Assembly: GCA_012512595.1 (NCBI GenBank)
Contig: JAAZDW010000005.1
Span: 1-62,690 of the forward strand
DNA from: Erysipelothrix sp.
GTDB lineage: Bacteria > Bacillota_I > Bacilli_A > Erysipelotrichales > Erysipelotrichaceae
Length of the DNA: 62,690 nt
Direction of reading: 5' to 3'
The translations under genes were made by a program, and so were the position numbers. This document shows, piece after piece, positions 9,061-20,050 of the stretch (position 1 is its first letter; each line of letters starts with the position of its first letter). The notes beneath the pieces were generated by a model, which did no database searches, was not told the DNA's origin, and saw only the letters and a program-made list of their open reading frames with translations.

Positions 9061-9078
9061 AAAAAGGATGATAAATTA

Positions 9079-10149
9079 ATGAAACGCGAAGATATAAAAA
9101 TACATGCAATAAATTATGAAGAAGATATATTAGATAACATTGATGAGGCAGTTTTAAATATTAGTGAAGAAATCCACCTGATGCCAGATACACATATTGG
9201 TCTTTCGGTACCAATTGGCTTTGTTGGAAGATTTAAGGAAAACAAAATTATTCCAAATGCGATTGGAGTCGATATTGGTTGTGGGATGAGTTTTATTGAT
9301 ATTCCTAAAGATGTTTCTTTAGAGTACAATAAATTATATAATGTAATTGTAAAAAACATTCCGACCGGTTTTAAGATTCACAACAAAAACTCAAAACATG
9401 TTTACAAGTGGGACAGGTTAAATCAGTTACGTTTTAATTATTCACAAAAAGAAATGCACCGTTTTCAACATGCAATTGGAACCTTAGGTGGCGGCAACCA
9501 CTTTATTGAACTTAATGAATTTAAAGAAGTCAATCGTTTAGTTGTTCATAGTGGTTCTAGAAATTTAGGAAATCAGATCGCAAGATATTATCAAAGGATC
9601 GCAAATAAAAGTGAAGGTCAATACTTAAGTGATAAAAACTACGATGACTATCTCAATGATATGCAAATCGCAATGGACTATGCTCGTTTGAGCCGTAAAA
9701 GAATGATTGAAATCATTGTCAATGAATACTTTAATTATGCGGTCCCTTTTGAATTTGAAATTGAGAGTGTCCACCATAATTACTTTGATACCAAAACAAA
9801 CATTGTTTATAAAGGCGCAATTGATGCCAGTTTAAATAAACGCGTAATTATTCCGATTAATATGCGTGATGGAACGATTATAGGTTATGGAAAAGGCAAT
9901 CCTGACTGGATGTGTGCCGCCCCCCATGGGGCCGGTCGCATCTTATCTAGAACAGCAGCTAAAAAAACATTGACCTTAGATAATATGATTCATGAAATGC
10001 GGGGAATATTTTCAAGAACACTCTCACATCGAACCCTTGATGAACATCCGGATGCTTATCGCGATATTGATGAAATATTAGAAGTTATATCTGAAACAGT
10101 AAGTGATGTGGAAGTTGGAAAAGTTTTATTCAATTTTAAAGGAGATTAA
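9079..10149 (+). CDS. rtcB: RtcB-family RNA ligase
   Basis: 356 residues; shorter than E. coli RtcB (408). The family joins 2',3'-cyclic or 3'-phosphate RNA ends to 5'-OH ends using Mn2+ and GTP. Seen: NAIGVDIGCGM (Asp and Cys metal ligands), TLGGGNHFIEL, HSGSRNLGN, and APHGAGRILSR around residue 282 with the His that is guanylylated in the family. ATG 9079 follows AAAAAGGATG; an upstream in-frame extension runs through the recA terminator and is unlikely. No archease or RtcA gene is nearby. The stop is one base before the nucleoside hydrolase ATG. Confidence 0.9.
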   Translation: MKREDIKIHAINYEEDILDNIDEAVLNISEEIHLMPDTHIGLSVPIGFVGRFKENKIIPNAIGVDIGCGMSFIDIPKDVSLEYNKLYNVIVKNIPTGFKIHNKNSKHVYKWDRLNQLRFNYSQKEMHRFQHAIGTLGGGNHFIELNEFKEVNRLVVHSGSRNLGNQIARYYQRIANKSEGQYLSDKNYDDYLNDMQIAMDYARLSRKRMIEIIVNEYFNYAVPFEFEIESVHHNYFDTKTNIVYKGAIDASLNKRVIIPINMRDGTIIGYGKGNPDWMCAAPHGAGRILSRTAAKKTLTLDNMIHEMRGIFSRTLSHRTLDEHPDAYRDIDEILEVISETVSDVEVGKVLFNFKGD

Positions 10150-10150
10150 A

Positions 10151-11068
10151 ATGGAAAAAGAGATAGTAGTAATTGACTGTGATCCAGGTATTGATGATGC
10201 CTATGCGCTTTTATATGCCCTAGCAGACAAAAATTTAGATGTTAGGTTAGTATCAACTGTTTCAGGTAATGTAAATGTCGATGTAAATACTAAAAACGCG
10301 CAAAGAATTGTGAAAATGGCAAATAAAAATATTCCAATTGTCAAAGGTGCGACAAGACCTTTAGTCAAAGCAGCGCACTATGCAGAACATGTTCATGGTA
10401 AAAATGGGATGAATAACTACATTTATAAAAATGATGAGATGGCAGAGCTTTTAGAGATATCAGTTTTAAAGGCCTACTACCAAGTGATTTCCAAAGCAGA
10501 AAAGCCAGTGATTATTGCCGCAATTGGTCCTTTAACCAACATCGCAAAACTTCTGTTGACCTATCCAGACATTAAAAATAAAATTAAATACTTAACAATT
10601 ATGGGTGGTGGTTTAAAAGGTGGTAATACAACGATTGCGGCTGAGTTTAATTTTTATGCTGACCCTGAAGCTGCAAAAATTGTTTTAGAATCAGGGCTGC
10701 CAATAATAATGGCCGGTTTAGATGTAACTGAAAAAACCATCGTTAGCCAAAAATTATTAGAAGATCTAAAAGCTTTAAATCCAATTGGCGAGTTTTTATA
10801 TGACATCTTAGATCCTAAATCTTCTTATATGCAGATTGATAAAGGCTCCTTACATGATGTTGTAGCTTTAATGGCAATTAATAACTTAGATATCTTTAGT
10901 TTTGAAAACTTAGATGTTTATGTCGAAACTAATGAAGGTTTGACGCGCGGTATGAGTGTGGCTGATCGGCGAATGAATAGTAAAAATGGTAAAGTCAAAG
11001 TCTTAGTAGACGTCGATATTAAGCGCTTTAATCAAGAACTAATTAATAAAATTAAAAGCTACAAATAA
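10151..11068 (+). CDS. Inosine/uridine-preferring nucleoside hydrolase
   Basis: 305 residues. Hydrolyses ribonucleosides to base plus ribose in the cytoplasm. The Ca2+ site DCDPGIDDAYAL is at residues 8-19, with HGKNGMNN, EFNFYADPEAA and the late KGSLHDVVAL His. The specific base cannot be told from sequence. ATG 10151 follows AAAGGAGATT, one base after rtcB. The ribokinase gene 13 bases downstream would phosphorylate the released ribose, so the pair forms a short salvage path. Confidence 0.92.
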   Translation: MEKEIVVIDCDPGIDDAYALLYALADKNLDVRLVSTVSGNVNVDVNTKNAQRIVKMANKNIPIVKGATRPLVKAAHYAEHVHGKNGMNNYIYKNDEMAELLEISVLKAYYQVISKAEKPVIIAAIGPLTNIAKLLLTYPDIKNKIKYLTIMGGGLKGGNTTIAAEFNFYADPEAAKIVLESGLPIIMAGLDVTEKTIVSQKLLEDLKALNPIGEFLYDILDPKSSYMQIDKGSLHDVVALMAINNLDIFSFENLDVYVETNEGLTRGMSVADRRMNSKNGKVKVLVDVDIKRFNQELINKIKSYK

Positions 11069-11081
11069 GTGGGGTGAAATT

Positions 11082-11969
11082 ATGCAAAAGATTTTAGTTA
11101 TCGGCAGTATTAATGTAGATTTTGTCGTGAGTAGTAAAGTTAGGCCAAAGATTGGTGAAACAGTCATTGGAGAAAAATTGACGGTTACTTATGGTGGAAA
11201 AGGGGCTAATCAAGCTATCGCTGCGGCAAGGCTAAAAGCTAGTGTTTCAATGATTGGAAAAGTTGGAGTTGATTTTATAGCTAACGATGTCTTAGAAAAT
11301 TTAAACAAAAACAATGTTGATATTTCAAATGTTGAAAGTATTAAACAAAGTGAGACAGGAAGTGCTCATATAACTTTAAGTGATGGTGACAATTCAATTA
11401 TTGTAATTCCAGGGGCCAATAACTGTTTTGAAAAAAACTTTATTGAGAAATTTAGCCAAGTTATTTTACAACATGACTTTGTTATTGTTCAAAACGAAAT
11501 TCCAGCCTTTATTGTGGAACAAGTACTAGACTTTTGTTATATAAATAATATAGATACTATTTACAATCCAGCCCCATTTAGAGAAATTGCCCTAGATACA
11601 TTATTAAAGGCAAAATATATAACTCCAAATGAACATGAAGCGATCAGTTTATTGAAAACTAAAAATCTAAAGGAAATTGTTAAGCAATATCCAAATCAAG
11701 TAATTATAACCCTAGGTTCTAAAGGGGCGATGTATTTTGATGGTGAAAAAATTGTAAAAGTAAAGGCGATTAAGACGACGGTGGTTGATACAACTGGGGC
11801 TGGGGACACTTTTAATGGCGCTTTAGCCGTAGCCCTCAGTAAAGACGAACCATTATTTAAAGCAATAAATTTTGCAAATGTAGCAGCTAGCCTTTCAATT
11901 GAAAAATTAGGGGCTCAAGCCGGAATGCCAAGTCTTAGTATGGTAGAAGAAAAATTCAAAAAGCTCTAA
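11082..11969 (+). CDS. rbsK: Ribokinase
   Basis: 295 residues, PfkB family. Phosphorylates D-ribose to ribose 5-phosphate. Signature 1 TYGGKGANQAIAAARL (~36-51) and signature 2 DTTGAGDTFNGAL (~236-248, with the catalytic Asp) are intact, with the N-terminal GSINVDFV typical of ribokinases. It follows the nucleoside hydrolase by 13 bases with RBS GGGGTGA. Other PfkB sugar kinases are possible, but the context favours ribose. Confidence 0.88.
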   Translation: MQKILVIGSINVDFVVSSKVRPKIGETVIGEKLTVTYGGKGANQAIAAARLKASVSMIGKVGVDFIANDVLENLNKNNVDISNVESIKQSETGSAHITLSDGDNSIIVIPGANNCFEKNFIEKFSQVILQHDFVIVQNEIPAFIVEQVLDFCYINNIDTIYNPAPFREIALDTLLKAKYITPNEHEAISLLKTKNLKEIVKQYPNQVIITLGSKGAMYFDGEKIVKVKAIKTTVVDTTGAGDTFNGALAVALSKDEPLFKAINFANVAASLSIEKLGAQAGMPSLSMVEEKFKKL

Positions 11970-12148: not shown

Positions 12149-13708
12149 ATGAATGATATTAAGTCACTCTATCTAGTCTTAACAGGTATTGTTGGTATAT
12201 TAATCGGGTTATTAGTCATGGCACTAATCGTAAGAGCACAAGAGAAAAAAGCTCGCGAAAGTGCTATTGATATAGTTGAAGAAGCCCGTGTGAAAGCTGA
12301 AGAAATAACAAGAGAAGCCAGAGCAGAGGCGAGAAGAGATAGTGCAGAACATCGCGCTCAAGTCGAAAGCGAATTAAGAAGTCGAAGAAATGACCTTGAA
12401 AGTCAAGAAAACATCATGATGACAAGGGAAAAGAATCTTAATGTGCGAGACCAGTCTTTAACAGATAAAGAAAGAAATAACGATCGAAGAAGTAATGAAA
12501 TTACCGATAAAATCCAAAAACTAGATAAACTGGAAGCCGAATTAAATAGTAGGCTAGACAGCCAGATTTTAGAATTGCAAAGAATTTCAAATTTAAGTGA
12601 AGAACAAGCGAAAGCGGAAATTTTAGATCAAGTAAAAGCAGAAATGGAAAACGAAATTATTGGCTTTATGCGAGATCAAGAAGATGAGGCAAAATCAAGA
12701 TCACAAGAAGTCGCTAGAAATATTATAGGCTTAGCGATACAAGGGAGCGCCCAAGAGGAAGCTCAAGATCGAACGGTTTCAGTTGTATCACTTCCAAGTG
12801 AGGAAATGAAGGGTAGGATTATTGGTCGTGAAGGTAGAAATATCCGCGCGATTGAAAAAGCTACTGGCGTTGATTTAATAATTGACGATACACCTGAAGT
12901 TATTACTGTTTCATGTTTTGACCCAATTAGGCGAGAAGTGGCGAAAATGTCCCTTGAACACCTAATTAAAGATGGAAGAATTCAACCAAGCAGAATTGAA
13001 GAAGTTGTCTACAAAATGCAAAAAGAGCTAGATGATAAAATTATGAAGGTTGGAGAAGACGCAGTCTTTAAACTTGGTGTTGGCAAAATGGACCGTGAGT
13101 TAATTAAACTTGTTGGTAAGTTACGCTATCGCTATAGTTATGGACAAAATGCTTTAGACCACAGTCTTGAAGTAGCGCACATTGCCGGTGTTATGGCAGC
13201 TGAACTTGGTTTAAACCAAAGCTTAGCTAAACGTGCTGGACTATTACATGATATTGGAAAAGCCTTAGACTTTGAAATGGAAGGTACACATATTGAACTT
13301 GGTTATAAAGTTGCTAAAAAGCATGGCGAAGATGAAGTTGTATTAAACTCAATTCAATCTCACCATGGAGATGTTGAAGCAACTCACATCATTTCAAACC
13401 TTGTTGAAGCAGCTGACACTTTAAGTGCTGCCAGACCGGGAGCGCGTTATGAATCATTTGAAAATTATATTAGAAGACTTGAAGATTTAGAAAAAATTGG
13501 CGACTCATTTAAAGGTGTTAAAAAATCATATGCAATTCAAGCCGGTAGAGAAATTAGAGTTATCGCAATCCCAGATCAGTTAGATGATAATGGATGCTAC
13601 CGAGTTGCACGTGAAATAAAAGAACGCATTGAAAGTGAGCTAACTTATCCAGGCCAAGTAAAAGTAACAGTAATTAGAGAAACAAGAGCTAGCGCAACTG
13701 CTAAGTAG
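12149..13708 (+). CDS. rny: Ribonuclease Y
   Basis: 519 residues, normal length. Membrane-anchored endoribonuclease that starts mRNA decay in Firmicutes. N-terminal transmembrane helix (~5-28), long charged coiled coil (~30-195), KH domain (GRIIGREGRNIRAIEKATG, ~220-238) and HD domain (HSLEVAHIAG and AGLLHDIGKALD). ATG 12149 has AAAAGGAG upstream. ymdB begins at the base after its stop, the conserved rny-ymdB pair. Confidence 0.97.
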   Translation: MNDIKSLYLVLTGIVGILIGLLVMALIVRAQEKKARESAIDIVEEARVKAEEITREARAEARRDSAEHRAQVESELRSRRNDLESQENIMMTREKNLNVRDQSLTDKERNNDRRSNEITDKIQKLDKLEAELNSRLDSQILELQRISNLSEEQAKAEILDQVKAEMENEIIGFMRDQEDEAKSRSQEVARNIIGLAIQGSAQEEAQDRTVSVVSLPSEEMKGRIIGREGRNIRAIEKATGVDLIIDDTPEVITVSCFDPIRREVAKMSLEHLIKDGRIQPSRIEEVVYKMQKELDDKIMKVGEDAVFKLGVGKMDRELIKLVGKLRYRYSYGQNALDHSLEVAHIAGVMAAELGLNQSLAKRAGLLHDIGKALDFEMEGTHIELGYKVAKKHGEDEVVLNSIQSHHGDVEATHIISNLVEAADTLSAARPGARYESFENYIRRLEDLEKIGDSFKGVKKSYAIQAGREIRVIAIPDQLDDNGCYRVAREIKERIESELTYPGQVKVTVIRETRASATAK

Positions 13709-14473
13709 ATGAAAATACTATTTGTAGGAGATATTGTTTCAAGACCTGGTCGAAGGGTTTTAGAAAAACATTTAAAAAGCCTTCAAAAAAAACATGATAT
13801 TGATTTTACAATTGTAAATGCTGAAAATGCAGCCCACGGCAAAGGCTTAACACCAAAAATATTTAATCAAATTATTGGTTTTGGAGCTGATGTTATTACC
13901 TTGGGCAATCATGCTTATGCTAAAGAAGAAATCTTTGAAATTATTAATGATGAAAAGATTGTCAGACCAATTAATCTGACTACATCAAAAATGGGTAAAG
14001 GTTATCGTTTGTTTAAAGTATTAGACAAAACAATTCTTGTCGGCAATGTTTGTGGAGAAGCATTTATGCATAATGTTGACCCTGATCCATTTATTGCGAG
14101 TTTAGAATTTGTAAACGCAAAGGCCGATATTAAGATTATGGATTTACATGGCGAAGCAACAGCTGAAAAAGTAGCTTACATGCATTACTTTAAAAACGAT
14201 TTTACTGCGATTTTAGGCACCCATACCCATGTCCAGACAGCTGATGAAGACATCTTTAATGGCTGTGCTTATATAAGTGATGTTGGCATGAGTGGACCTT
14301 ATGAGAGTGTTATCGGGCGCGATATTGACGAAGTTATATCAAGATTTGTTGGTAATGAACAAACATACTATACAGTTTCAAAAAATGAAGCGGTCTTGTG
14401 TGCAGTAGTAATTGAAATTGATGAAAAGACAAATCGTGCTAGTAAAATAGAACGGATTCAGATTAGACCATAA
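13709..14473 (+). CDS. ymdB: YmdB-family phosphodiesterase
   Basis: 254 residues. Calcineurin-like metallophosphoesterase that in Bacillus hydrolyses 2',3'-cyclic nucleotides and affects biofilm and motility decisions. Motifs in order: FVGDIVSRPGRR, VNAENAAHGKGLTPKI, LGNHAYAKEE, DLHGEATAEK, GTHTHVQTADE. Its ATG abuts the rny TAG with no spacer; the ribosome site must lie inside the end of rny. Functional link: RNase Y generates RNA fragments and YmdB acts on cyclic nucleotides. Confidence 0.93.
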   Translation: MKILFVGDIVSRPGRRVLEKHLKSLQKKHDIDFTIVNAENAAHGKGLTPKIFNQIIGFGADVITLGNHAYAKEEIFEIINDEKIVRPINLTTSKMGKGYRLFKVLDKTILVGNVCGEAFMHNVDPDPFIASLEFVNAKADIKIMDLHGEATAEKVAYMHYFKNDFTAILGTHTHVQTADEDIFNGCAYISDVGMSGPYESVIGRDIDEVISRFVGNEQTYYTVSKNEAVLCAVVIEIDEKTNRASKIERIQIRP

Positions 14474-14636: not shown

Positions 14637-16073
14637 ATGGAAAAAAAATATCAAATGCCCAATTTAAAGGATGCGCGTTTACGAACTGATAATCCGGTTG
14701 ATATCAAAGAGAATCTTTTCAAAATTCCAAAAGCAGTGGAAAATATTGGCTTTGGAAAAAACTTCTACCTTAGAACTTATGGCTGTCAAGCAAATGAGCG
14801 CGATGGTGAAGTTATGCTAGGAATTTTTAAACAACTTGGTTATACTCAAGTCTTTGATACAGAAGAAGCAGATGTCATTCTTTTAAATACATGCGCAATC
14901 AGAGAAGGAGCTGAAGATAAGGTCTTTGGCGAACTTGGCTCACTAAAGCGTTTAAAACGCGAAAATCCTGATTTGATTTTAGGTTTATGTGGTTGTATGG
15001 CTCAAGAAGAATATGTGGTCAATCGAATCTTAGAAAAATATCAACATGTTGACTTGGTCTTTGGAACCCACAATATTCACCGCTTACCGCAATTATTGGG
15101 GCAAGCAATCTTTTCAAAGGAAAAGGTTATTGAAGTCTTTTCAGAAGAAGGCCATGTTATCGAAAATTTACCATCAAGTCGAGTGGGTCACCATAAGGCG
15201 TGGGTTAATATTATTTATGGTTGTGACAAGTTTTGTTCATACTGTATTGTCCCATATACCCGTGGTAAGGAACGTTCGCGTATGATGAGTGATGTTTTAA
15301 ATGAAATTGATGAAGTCATTGAAGCGGGCTATAAAGAAGTTACCTTACTTGGCCAAAATGTCAATGCTTATGGAAAAGACTTAGAAGATGGCACATCTTT
15401 TGCCAAGCTTTTACAAGCTGTCGCTGACAAAAATATTGCTAGAATTAGATTTACAACTTCACATCCATGGGACTTTAGTGAAGAGATGATTGAAGTTATC
15501 GCCAGCAACTCAAATGTTATGCCCTCATTTCACCTACCAGTTCAATCTGGAAATGATAAGATCTTAAGAATGATGGGCCGACGTTATACTGTCGATTCCT
15601 ATAAAGAAATTTATAATAAATTAAAAACGCGAATTCCAAATTGTTCATTTACTACGGATATAATAGTTGGATTTCCAAATGAGACACAAGCGCAATTTCA
15701 AGAAACATTAGACTTGTATGAATACTGTAAATTTGACTTAGCTTACACCTTTGTTTATTCTCCAAGAAAAGGCACCCCAGCTGCAAAGTTTGAAGACAAT
15801 ATATCTGATGAAGTAAAATCACAGCGGCTACAAGAGTTAAATCTTTTAGTCGGTAAGTATGCTCAAGAGAATAATGCTAAATACTTAAACAAAGTAGTCA
15901 AAGTTTTAGTAGATGGACCTAGTAAAAGAAACAAAGATATTTATAGTGGCTATAGTGAAACTAACAAACTTGTTAACTTTACGCCAATGAAGGCAAAAGT
16001 TGGTGACATCGTTAAAGTTTTAATAACTGAAACGAAATCCTATTCTTTAAATGGAATTGAAAAAGAGGACTAA
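14637..16073 (+). CDS. miaB: tRNA-2-methylthio-N6-dimethylallyladenosine synthase MiaB
   Basis: 479 residues. Radical-SAM enzyme adding the 2-methylthio group to i6A37 of tRNA. N-terminal cluster cysteines in TYGCQANERD, LLNTCAIREG and GLCGCMAQEE; radical SAM motif GCDKFCSYCIVPYTRGKERS; C-terminal TRAM region (~410-475). ATG 14637 follows AAAAGGAGTAAGT; the longer in-frame TTG start at 14610 falls in the terminator loop and is rejected. The stop codon lies in the loop of the next terminator. A second methylthiotransferase (mtaB) lies at 59 kb. Confidence 0.96.
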   Translation: MEKKYQMPNLKDARLRTDNPVDIKENLFKIPKAVENIGFGKNFYLRTYGCQANERDGEVMLGIFKQLGYTQVFDTEEADVILLNTCAIREGAEDKVFGELGSLKRLKRENPDLILGLCGCMAQEEYVVNRILEKYQHVDLVFGTHNIHRLPQLLGQAIFSKEKVIEVFSEEGHVIENLPSSRVGHHKAWVNIIYGCDKFCSYCIVPYTRGKERSRMMSDVLNEIDEVIEAGYKEVTLLGQNVNAYGKDLEDGTSFAKLLQAVADKNIARIRFTTSHPWDFSEEMIEVIASNSNVMPSFHLPVQSGNDKILRMMGRRYTVDSYKEIYNKLKTRIPNCSFTTDIIVGFPNETQAQFQETLDLYEYCKFDLAYTFVYSPRKGTPAAKFEDNISDEVKSQRLQELNLLVGKYAQENNAKYLNKVVKVLVDGPSKRNKDIYSGYSETNKLVNFTPMKAKVGDIVKVLITETKSYSLNGIEKED

Positions 16074-16233: not shown

Positions 16234-17880
16234 ATGGATAATATTAAGATTTTTTCGCTTGGAGGACAAGACGAAGATGGAAGGAATATGTATGTTGTCG
16301 AAAACAACGACGAGATATTTTTAATTGATGCAGGATCAAAGGAAGCCGGGACAGGACAATTAGGTGTTGAGAAGATTATCCCTGACTTTACTTTTATTAA
16401 GCAAAACAGAAAAAGAGTAAAAGCCTTATTTATAACGCATGCTCATGATGATGCAATTGGTAGTTTAACGCACCTTTTAGAAGAAGTGAGAGTACCAATT
16501 TATACAACAGCCCTAACTGCTGAAATTATTAAACCAATGTTAGAGAAAAAGAATATTAAAAACGTTGAAATAAATATCATTAAAAGATCAGATGAATTTA
16601 GAGTTGGGAAAACTAGAATTAGAACTTTTGCAATGACAAATTCTGTCCCTGATGCCTTTGGTTTAGCTATCAGCACAAAGTCTGGAAACATTGTTTATAC
16701 AAGTGAGTTTATAATTGACTATGACATCGGCTTACATGCCTTTGCATCGGACATTGTTGAATTAGCTGAAATTGGTAAGGAAAAAACATTTGCCTTATTA
16801 ACTGAATCAGTCGGTTCAAGTCGGGAAGGCTACACAGCACCAAAACATAAAATTTCACATGTCTTAGAAAGTCATATTGATCAAGCACCAGCAAGAATAG
16901 TTATTACTTCATATGCTCAAAACATTTATCGAGTAATTGAACTGGCTGAATTATGTCAACGCAATCATAAGAAATTGTTTTTTCATGACAAAAATATGTT
17001 AGAAATGATGCATACTTTAAAACGCTTAGACTACTATCATATGCCAGAAGAGGTTGTCGCAACTCTAGATGATGTTAATGATAATGAAACGATCGTTTTA
17101 GTTACTGGTGATGGTTCAGAAGTGTTTAATAAAATGTTTGCGATAACTTCAGGTGAAGATAATCGTTTATCACTTAAAAAAGATGATACCGTTATTATTG
17201 CTTCACCAATTGTAGCTGGGGTTGAAGTTGAAGCAATTCAACTTGAAAATGAATTATACAAAGATGACCATATGGTTATTACAATTGATAAAGATGAACT
17301 TTTAGCAATGCATGCATCCCAAGAAGACTTAAAGATGATGTTGTATTTATTTAAACCAAGATACTATATTCCAGTAAAAGGTAACTATCGTCATTTAGCT
17401 GGTAATGCTGACTTAGCAATGGGACTTGGATATACGGCTGATCGCATTGTTATTTTAGACAATGGTCAAGTAGCGACCTTTGAAAAGAATCGTTTAAAGA
17501 GTGCTTCAAATATGGTCTCAGCTGAAGATGTTATGGTTGATGGTACTGATAGCCTAGAAGAAGGAAGTCTAGTCCTTAAAGACCGTGAAACACTATCAAC
17601 AGATGGTGTAATTATCATTGGTGTCTTAATTGACCATAAAACAAAAGAAATTATCGGTGGACCAGATATTCAATCGCGTGGGCTAATTTATGTAAGAGAT
17701 GCAAATCATATATTAAAAGAAGTAAGCAAGATTATGGTTGACACTTTAAATCAAGCAGTAAAAGACAATCGCTATACTAATATTGACGTAAGAACTGAAG
17801 TTAGATCTAAGGCTGGCCGTTATGTTTCTAAAGAAACCGGCAAACGTCCAATGATTTTACCGTCAATCATCGAAATATAA
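16234..17880 (+). CDS. rnjB: RNase J2-like metallo-beta-lactamase/beta-CASP protein with degenerate active site
   Basis: 548 residues, full RNase J architecture (beta-lactamase, beta-CASP ~200-330, C-terminal RNase J domain with GPDIQSRGLIYV). The metal site is damaged: HxHxDH reads HAHDDA at 69-74, the His of HSIPD is Asn136, the Asp of GDF is Glu158, and the first His of HVSGH is Leu356 (H360 kept). RNase J2 of Bacillus is also degenerate and lies near spoIIIE, as here, so this is probably the J2 partner of an active RNase J1 encoded elsewhere. ATG 16234 follows GGAGGAATT. Confidence 0.88.
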   Translation: MDNIKIFSLGGQDEDGRNMYVVENNDEIFLIDAGSKEAGTGQLGVEKIIPDFTFIKQNRKRVKALFITHAHDDAIGSLTHLLEEVRVPIYTTALTAEIIKPMLEKKNIKNVEINIIKRSDEFRVGKTRIRTFAMTNSVPDAFGLAISTKSGNIVYTSEFIIDYDIGLHAFASDIVELAEIGKEKTFALLTESVGSSREGYTAPKHKISHVLESHIDQAPARIVITSYAQNIYRVIELAELCQRNHKKLFFHDKNMLEMMHTLKRLDYYHMPEEVVATLDDVNDNETIVLVTGDGSEVFNKMFAITSGEDNRLSLKKDDTVIIASPIVAGVEVEAIQLENELYKDDHMVITIDKDELLAMHASQEDLKMMLYLFKPRYYIPVKGNYRHLAGNADLAMGLGYTADRIVILDNGQVATFEKNRLKSASNMVSAEDVMVDGTDSLEEGSLVLKDRETLSTDGVIIIGVLIDHKTKEIIGGPDIQSRGLIYVRDANHILKEVSKIMVDTLNQAVKDNRYTNIDVRTEVRSKAGRYVSKETGKRPMILPSIIEI

Positions 17881-17896
17881 AAAGTAGGGGGATTTG

Positions 17897-20050
17897 ATGG
17901 CAAAAAAATCAAAAGATAAACAATCACATCGGCTAGAGATAAGTATCGCTAGCCTTATTGTTATAGCTATAACAATTATAGCTTTTTTTAAGTTGGGCAT
18001 AGTTGGAATCTTAATTGATAAATCATTTAGATTTTTATTTGGTGAATACCACTTTGTAACTTATCTACTTTTAATCTTAACTAGTTTAATGGTCCTTTTA
18101 GCCTATGGAAAAATAAAATTGTCAAAACCAAACATTCTTGGTTATTCAATTTTGTTTTTAGGCTTTTTACTGTTTTCAGCTTTAGTTAATAATCATGACT
18201 ATGTTGGTGGCAAAGCAATTAGTTTCTTTTTCGCCAACAGTACCAACATCTTTAACTATCGGATGAATGCTAGTGGTGGGATGCTAGGGATTTTAGTTTA
18301 TGGTTTTTTTACAATGCTATTTGACTATGTTGGCACAATAATTGTTTTATTGATTATTGTTTTAATTGGAATCTTATTAACCGTTGACATTAGAAAATGG
18401 ATTGATAAACTTAATGCTTCAATTGAAGCCTCAAAACTTAAAAGAAAGAAAAAAGTTGCAAAAAAGAAACACCAAGATGAATATCAAATTGGTGATGAAT
18501 ACTTAGCTGAACATAATAAAACTGAGGTAGTTAAAGCTAAAAAAAGTGCATTTATAACGCTTAAGGATGACCCAAAGGGCATTGATCAAATTACCTTACC
18601 CTTAGATGAAGATAAAGTCGTTACAAGCAAAGGCTATAAATTGCCAAGATTAACATTATTAGACACCCAAGTTGTAAGTCAGATTTCTTCTAAAAATAAA
18701 AATGCAGCTGAAGTCAAAGGAAAAAAACTTGTCGAAGTTTTAAGTGAATTTAACATTACAGCAGAACTTGTTGACACCCATATTGGACCTTCTGTAACAA
18801 AATTTGAATTAAGGCCAGACTCATCAGTTAAGGTAAGTCGCATTAGTGCGATTCAAGATAACATTAAAATGGAGTTAGCGGCAAAAAATATTCGGATTGA
18901 AGCACCAATTCCAGGTAAGAATACCGTTGGAGTTGAAATTCCAAACATTGAAAACACAACTGTAAAACTTTATGAACTCTTAAGAGGGATGCCTCAAGAA
19001 TATGTTGATAATCCACTTCTGTTTGCCTTAGGTAAAGACTTGATGGGAAATACCCAGTACTGTGATTTAACAAAAATGCCCCATCTATTAATTGCGGGCG
19101 CAACCGGAGCTGGAAAATCAGTCGCGATGAATGCGATTATTACAACAATTTTAATTAGGACTACACCCGATCAAGTTAGGTTACTTTTAATTGACCCTAA
19201 AAAGGTTGAGTTTACAAGTTTTAGTCATGTGCCACACTTGTTAACTGATATTATATCAGAGCCACAAAAGGCCAACAATGCCTTAGCCAAGGTAGTTGAG
19301 ATAATGGATGATCGCTATCGGGCCTTTGCTGAAATAGGTGTTAAAAATATTACCGCTTATAATGAATATAAAATCGTTAACCCGGATGAAGACTTAAAAA
19401 GCTTAGAATTAATAGTAGTTATTATTGATGAATTAGCTGACTTAATGATCGTTGCCGGAAAAGAAGTTGAACAGAGTATTCAAAGAATCACGCAACTCGC
19501 AAGAGCGGCTGGTATTCATTTAATTGTAGCAACCCAAAGACCATCGACCGATGTTATTACCGGAATTATCAAGGCAAATATTCCATCAAGAATCTCTTTT
19601 GCTGTATCCAGTGGAATTGACTCAAGGACGATTCTTGATGCAGTTGGTGCCGAAAGACTTTTAGGTAATGGGGACATGTTGTACTATCCTGTTACATATT
19701 CAGCCCCATCAAGACTTCAAGGTGTTTATGTATCTGATGATGAGGTCAGTCGCATCGCAGAATTTGTAAGTAAACAGCCAAGTCCAGATCATTTAGACGT
19801 TTTTGAAAACCTAGATGAAGAAGAAAACACTTCTCTAATGCCAATGGCTTTTGATGATCCTTTATATGAAGATGTTAAGCAGTTTGTTGTAAAAGAGAAA
19901 AAAGCGAGTACCTCTTTAATCCAAAGAAGTTTTGGAATAGGTTATAACCGAGCGGCTAGAATTATTGATGCCTTAGAGGCAAAAGATGTAATTGGACCTA
20001 TGCAAGGTAGTAAACCACGTGATGTCTACTTAGATGAAGAAGATTTATAA
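17897..20050 (+). CDS. ftsK: DNA translocase FtsK/SpoIIIE
   Basis: 717 residues. Pumps chromosomal DNA across the septum. Four or so transmembrane helices in residues ~15-175, a charged linker, the alpha/beta motor with Walker A GATGAGKSVAMN (~400) and Walker B VVIIDELADLM, and a C-terminal winged-helix gamma domain (SLIQRSFGIGYNRAARIID) that reads orientation sequences. ATG 17897 follows AGGGGGA; a TTG three bases upstream is too close to that site. It follows the RNase J gene by 16 bases and shares its transcript. Confidence 0.96.
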   Translation: MAKKSKDKQSHRLEISIASLIVIAITIIAFFKLGIVGILIDKSFRFLFGEYHFVTYLLLILTSLMVLLAYGKIKLSKPNILGYSILFLGFLLFSALVNNHDYVGGKAISFFFANSTNIFNYRMNASGGMLGILVYGFFTMLFDYVGTIIVLLIIVLIGILLTVDIRKWIDKLNASIEASKLKRKKKVAKKKHQDEYQIGDEYLAEHNKTEVVKAKKSAFITLKDDPKGIDQITLPLDEDKVVTSKGYKLPRLTLLDTQVVSQISSKNKNAAEVKGKKLVEVLSEFNITAELVDTHIGPSVTKFELRPDSSVKVSRISAIQDNIKMELAAKNIRIEAPIPGKNTVGVEIPNIENTTVKLYELLRGMPQEYVDNPLLFALGKDLMGNTQYCDLTKMPHLLIAGATGAGKSVAMNAIITTILIRTTPDQVRLLLIDPKKVEFTSFSHVPHLLTDIISEPQKANNALAKVVEIMDDRYRAFAEIGVKNITAYNEYKIVNPDEDLKSLELIVVIIDELADLMIVAGKEVEQSIQRITQLARAAGIHLIVATQRPSTDVITGIIKANIPSRISFAVSSGIDSRTILDAVGAERLLGNGDMLYYPVTYSAPSRLQGVYVSDDEVSRIAEFVSKQPSPDHLDVFENLDEEENTSLMPMAFDDPLYEDVKQFVVKEKKASTSLIQRSFGIGYNRAARIIDALEAKDVIGPMQGSKPRDVYLDEEDL

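Follow-up and report, generated by a model that had tools for sequence, protein, structure and literature searches.

The analysed window, a stretch of 62,690 nucleotides from an Erysipelothrix sp. assembly (GCA_012512595.1, contig JAAZDW010000005.1), contains an RNase J-type gene whose open reading frame runs from an ATG at 16234 to 17880, with a GGAGG immediately 5' of the ATG. The gene and its neighbours are arranged as follows.

12149..13708, plus strand: rny (RNase Y), upstream neighbour (TIGR03319, 660 bits; conserved order)
13709..14473, plus strand: ymdB-type metallophosphoesterase, upstream neighbour (TIGR00282, 267 bits)
14637..16073, plus strand: miaB, upstream neighbour (TIGR01574, 558 bits)
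16234..17880, plus strand: RNase J2 (rnjB-type) coding sequence, 548 amino acids (open reading frame with ribosome-binding site; TIGR00649, 428.6 bits; J2 side of the tree)
17894..20050, plus strand: ftsK/spoIIIE-type translocase, downstream, marking the J2 locus across families (NF007615, 381 bits, below the model cut-off)

Between recA and rny (9076-11969 of the window) lie genes for an RtcB-family RNA ligase, an inosine-uridine nucleoside hydrolase and a PfkB-type kinase. Promoter-like matches that could represent a separate J2-ftsK promoter were no commoner than in shuffled sequence. The order rny-ymdB-miaB-J2-ftsK was found in many genomes of the query's family, and the J2-ftsK order in ten sampled families (f1, f2, f3, f5, f6, f7, f8, f9, f12 and f13), which agrees with the position of B. 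subtilis rnjB close to spoIIIE. The initial annotation had described this neighbourhood as a compact RNA-decay block; the gene order is as it stated, but the arrangement is the usual one in the family rather than a special one.

The query matched the RNase J family model TIGR00649 over residues 4-546 with 428.6 bits (cut-off 400), and its Pfam domains PF00753, PF22505, PF07521 and PF17770 correspond to the beta-lactamase, beta-CASP, RMMBL and RNase J C-terminal domains. Against the RNase_J1_RnjA model it reached only 423 bits (cut-off 820), which places it outside J1 as that model defines it, and its top sequence match in the PDB was S. epidermidis RNase J2. An AlphaFold2 model built on a 110-sequence alignment had a mean pLDDT of 90.9 and a pTM of 0.78; its best match by E-value was the J1/J2 integrative model 9a5v, and it superimposed on S. 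epidermidis J2 with 1.7-1.8 Å over about 440 residues. The confident model and the structure matches together confirm the RNase J fold of the query.

The seven metal ligands of S. epidermidis J1 (H74, H76, D78, H79, H142, D164 and H390; PMC7864078) served as the reference for the active site, and the query residues aligned to them are H69, H71, D73, A74, N136, E158 and K382. The first three ligands are kept and four are changed (H79 to A74, H142 to N136, D164 to E158 and H390 to K382, J1 numbering first), so that the query lacks the seven-ligand site of a canonical two-metal RNase J and has, at A74, E158 and K382, the loss or change of the second-metal ligands H79, D164 and H390 by which a J2 is recognized. 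Retention of three of the seven ligands is expected of a J2 and not of a canonical RNase J or a J1. The following elements were located by alignment.

16438..16455, plus strand: HxHxDH motif, HAHDDA (residues 69-74), with Ala74 at the H79 place
16636..16653, plus strand: HSIPD-type motif, TNSVPD (residues 135-140), with Asn136 at the H142 place
16702..16719, plus strand: GDF-type motif, SEFIID (residues 157-162), with Glu158 at the D164 place
16798..16815, plus strand: SDS element, TES (residues 190-192)
17107..17124, plus strand: GSQGEP element, GDGSEV (residues 292-297)
17299..17316, plus strand: phosphate loop HTSGH, LLAMH (residues 356-360), the last His being H360
17371..17388, plus strand: PIHGEY motif, PVKGNY, with Lys382 in the place of the seventh ligand H390

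The motif readings given for this protein in the initial annotation (HAHDDA at 69-74, Asn136, Glu158, TES, GDGSEV and LLAMH) were all correct, and so were the ligand losses that it listed; the list was incomplete, having overlooked the replacement of H390 by K382 in PVKGNY. It had also placed the HVSGH element beside the metal-ligand motifs, but experiments in S. epidermidis examined this loop (J1 residues 364-368) for phosphate recognition; among the residues tested there, H368 persists in the query as H360, and H364 and S366 are replaced by L356 and A358. A displacement of ligands that are nevertheless present found no support, as the motifs align without a shift and the AlphaFold2 model is confident in that region.

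To place the query among RNase J proteins, we used a tree of 114 sequences from 20 families of the class together with three solved structures; the tree is unrooted and has no outgroup, because the phylum search returned members of the same class only. In this unrooted tree, J1 (41 rows) formed a single clade with a support of 100, and the query lay on the opposite side with the J2s; S. epidermidis J2 joined next to the J1 branch. The query thus falls outside the J1 clade, and its HxHxDH, HSIPD, GDF and PIHGE motifs are not the intact ones of J1. The tree position and the J2-ftsK gene order bear out the J2-type identity proposed earlier. Named relatives recovered by the protein search belonged to Erysipelotrichaceae and allies, for example Holdemania, Dielma and Solobacterium.

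The proposal of a J1 partner is likewise supported, since both congeners encode an intact J1 (L003 and L004) beside a J2 with 72% identity to the query, and most family members also have an intact J1; two RNase J matches were found in 51 of the 58 family genomes. The second, intact RNase J that was to be sought in the genome was found in both congeners but not in the window's own assembly, which is 66% complete and has the J2 as its single RNase J; the missing J1 is probably an assembly gap. No J1 was found either in three drafts rated 96-98% complete (G016, G069 and G092), in which only the J2 was detected (loci L113, L148 and L189); these could be assembly gaps or real losses of J1. The J2 copy of G092 reads HHEH H N I. 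Two other candidates for J2-only genomes, G031 and G037, were rejected because J1 pieces are present in both, at contig ends in G031. In G018 and G057, rated 98-99% complete, no candidate for RNase J, RNase Y or RNase E/G was found; we do not count these as real losses of RNase J, as the common absence of RNase Y and RNase E/G points to probably unreadable records. In some genomes (G126 and G134 of family f13, loci L219 and L224), a third RNase J accompanies J1 and J2, namely a second J1-side copy that retains every ligand.

We then compared the site across the family and the class. All 37 family J1s have seven of the seven ligands. In the 88 family J2s, the HxHxDH positions are occupied by H (87), H (87), D (88) and then V (79) or A (4), the H142 place by H (45), Q (36) or N (4), the D164 place by E (86) and the H390 place by K (81); Glu is also found at the SDS-element place in 84 of the 88. 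The signature H-H-D-V/A ... E ... K is common to these 88 proteins and to the sister family. Among 80 non-redundant J2s, D73 and H360 never vary, H69 and H71 occur in 79 and E158 in 78, and the J2s have further invariant positions at which S. epidermidis J1 differs, among them H205, E364, N410 and Q480. By parsimony on a 94-row J2 tree, the D164 place changed state 3 times, the H390 place 5 times and the H142 place 8 times; the H142 ligand has been lost repeatedly, also in the subclade of the query's genus, where this place reads M, T, N and N.

Pairwise dN/dS was 0.15-0.19 between the query and the congener J2s, and 0.08 for the J2s and 0.06 for the J1s of the two congeners, with dS near saturation. 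Both congeners show the same A, N, E and K substitutions as the query; this shared set, together with a dN/dS of about 0.1-0.2, shows that they stem from neither chance nor sequencing error. The query, its pocket substituted, evolves under constraint and is not freely decaying. The earlier label "degraded" is therefore misleading, because most of the substitutions belong to an order-wide conserved signature under purifying selection.

The site patterns of J2 differ between the families of the class. In several families, the J2s retain H H D H H D and are substituted at H390 alone, usually by Ile, and the J2s of the TGA-sense (Mollicute-like) families have lost nearly all ligands; the query is intermediate. 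In the TGA-sense families f16 (L213, L214 and L216) and f5 (L201 and L205), the J2 metal site is nearly gone beside an intact J1, as the query's paralogue type also stands beside an intact J1, but their J2s (DKES G N Q; NAYN S D K) are much more eroded than the query, the HxHxDH motif and His142 being gone and, in f16, D164 as well. In f5, positions 164 and 390 still hold an Asp...Lys pair. In family f20 (L215, in G143), almost nothing of the J2 site is left (RGRT S D S); this copy sits on a very long branch, and its genome also encodes an intact J1. In two further J2s (L122 and L130) reading HHDM H Q M, Met at the 390 place is linked with Gln at the 164 place, as though both members of a Glu-Lys pair had disappeared together.

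Published J2s provide the closest comparisons. S. epidermidis J2 (PDB 6k6w) has the same fold as the query and shares the change of H79 to Ala, that of D164 to Glu and the loss of H390; it binds a single Mn via H76, H78, H80, H144 and E166, and is a weak enzyme, cleaving only at a much higher concentration than J1 (PMC7864078). Its ligand row is H H H A H E Q, whereas that of the query is H H D A N E K: S. epidermidis J2 has HGHEHA (His80 for Asp78 of J1), retains His144 and carries Gln instead of H390, and the query has in their stead Asp73 for His80, Asn136 for His144 and Lys382 for the Gln. The phosphate loops also differ (LLAMH in the query, HASSH in S. epidermidis J2). The query thus has one more changed ligand than S. 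epidermidis J2 and is far less altered than the TGA-sense J2s.

In S. aureus, whose J2 is likewise a paralogue with an incomplete HxHxDH motif (HGHEHA there) beside an intact J1, mutation of the J1 active site was nearly equivalent to deletion of J1, whereas mutation of the J2 active site was without effect on growth and deletion of J2 was harmful, and its authors proposed that the active site comes from J1 and that J2 is chiefly structural (PMC3937233). The dispensability of the site in vivo was shown for S. aureus J2 (PMC3937233). For E. faecalis J2, the KD of its binding to J1 is near 74 nM; the weak exonuclease activity of this J2 and pilus regulation both depend on H69 and H71, and its D73A mutant was not reduced in activity (PMC5383250). 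These residues have the same numbers in the query (H69, H71 and D73), and the two proteins are both J2 paralogues; the activity kept by E. faecalis D73A contrasts with the invariance of D73 in the J2s of the query's order. The second-zinc ligands have been reported as non-conserved in J2s (PMC5383250).

We propose that the query is the Erysipelotrichales orthologue of RNase J2 (rnjB), a partner of J1 whose own activity is very weak or absent and which holds at most one metal, with a probability of roughly 0.78. With the full RNase J fold kept, association with RNase J1 appears most likely by analogy with the studied J2s; J1 would provide the catalytic centre of the J1/J2 complex, and J2 would shape, stabilize or direct J1. 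We infer this complex, and the supporting role of J2 in it, from those systems. Inactive and active beta-CASP subunits are also paired in INTS9/INTS11 and CPSF100/CPSF73, where the pairing logic is alike but the setting is eukaryotic and the biology different, so that these serve as an analogy only; the Foldseek matches of the query to them were distant, at about 15-18% identity. The second metal site of the query would be lost, with His79 and His390 gone, Asp164 changed to Glu and Lys at the His390 place. The remaining pocket could hold at most one metal, through H69, H71, D73 and E158, and Lys382 may stand in for the missing one. With at most one metal left, the query's own exonuclease activity should be very weak or absent. 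Neither interaction nor activity data for this order came to light.

The description of the protein as non-catalytic is plausible but unproven, because four of the five Mn ligands of S. epidermidis J2 have equivalents in the query if Asp73 replaces His80. A slow but working one-metal nuclease, in which H69, H71, D73 and E158 hold a metal for weak endo- or exonucleolytic cleavage of substrates of its own, would find precedent in the single Mn and the activity measurable at high concentration of S. epidermidis J2 (PMC7864078) and in the in vivo importance of E. faecalis J2 activity (PMC5383250), and these four residues are among the most conserved of the J2s. We nevertheless consider it unlikely, since the single-Mn ligand His144 is Asn in the query and has undergone repeated replacement in the family, E. 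faecalis D73A stayed active (PMC5383250), so that D73 is not necessarily a ligand, and the Lys in place of H390 would lie close to the second metal. More broadly, the pocket may serve in catalysis or in RNA binding, because E. faecalis J2 needs H69 and H71 (PMC5383250), both of which are conserved in the query.

The strong conservation of the pocket despite the loss of ligands, and the invariance of the phosphate-loop His360, would also suit a conserved non-hydrolytic pocket for RNA binding or 5'-end sensing, in which the substituted residues, including Lys382, bind RNA uncut and direct J1; this appears rather doubtful, as two other loop residues, H364 and S366, are Leu and Ala in the query. 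J2s that lack His79 often carry a basic residue at the 390 place (of the 73 J2s compared across the class, Lys or Arg was found in none of the 25 with His79 and in 35 of the 48 without it), but we rejected a statistical link between the two, because the comparison amounts to about four independent contrasts, is inseparable from shared ancestry and is not significant once ancestry is considered. The same limit applies to a related and tentative reading in which the J2s of this order have the second metal replaced by a positive side chain: Lys382, at the place of His390 and the metal, would pair with Glu158, giving a non-hydrolytic or one-metal RNA-binding pocket that guides or senses substrate for J1. 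That the query is the sole RNase J of the organism, its unusual site working in place of J1, would fit the single RNase J of its own assembly, but is very improbable given the 66% completeness of that assembly and the intact J1 of both congeners. A vestigial, functionless copy in decay is scarcely credible: four of the seven ligands are lost and the H142 place varies in the query's subclade, but the dN/dS of about 0.1-0.2, the full-length open reading frame, the J2-specific invariant residues and the retention across the order speak against it, and conservation and dN/dS rule out random decay or a pseudogene.

The J2 orthologue that we favour adds to a known class, as J2s with incomplete sites have been described and a published study already reports that J2s lack conserved second-metal ligands (PMC5383250). 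In the literature that we examined, no paper paired Erysipelotrich- with RNase J, and we found no account of the H-H-D-V/A ... E ... K signature. Judged from the sequences, the site of the query is a lineage variant, a conserved feature of a whole bacterial order and not random decay. Findings on the J2 active site differ between species, as it is dispensable in S. aureus, needed in E. faecalis, and one-metal and weak in S. epidermidis. This order offers many natural J2s that share a differently substituted site, including a Lys in the place of a metal ligand, as well as lineages that have repeatedly lost a ligand of the remaining metal, and its J2s lend themselves to comparisons of whether J2 requires a metal, RNA binding or J1 binding alone.
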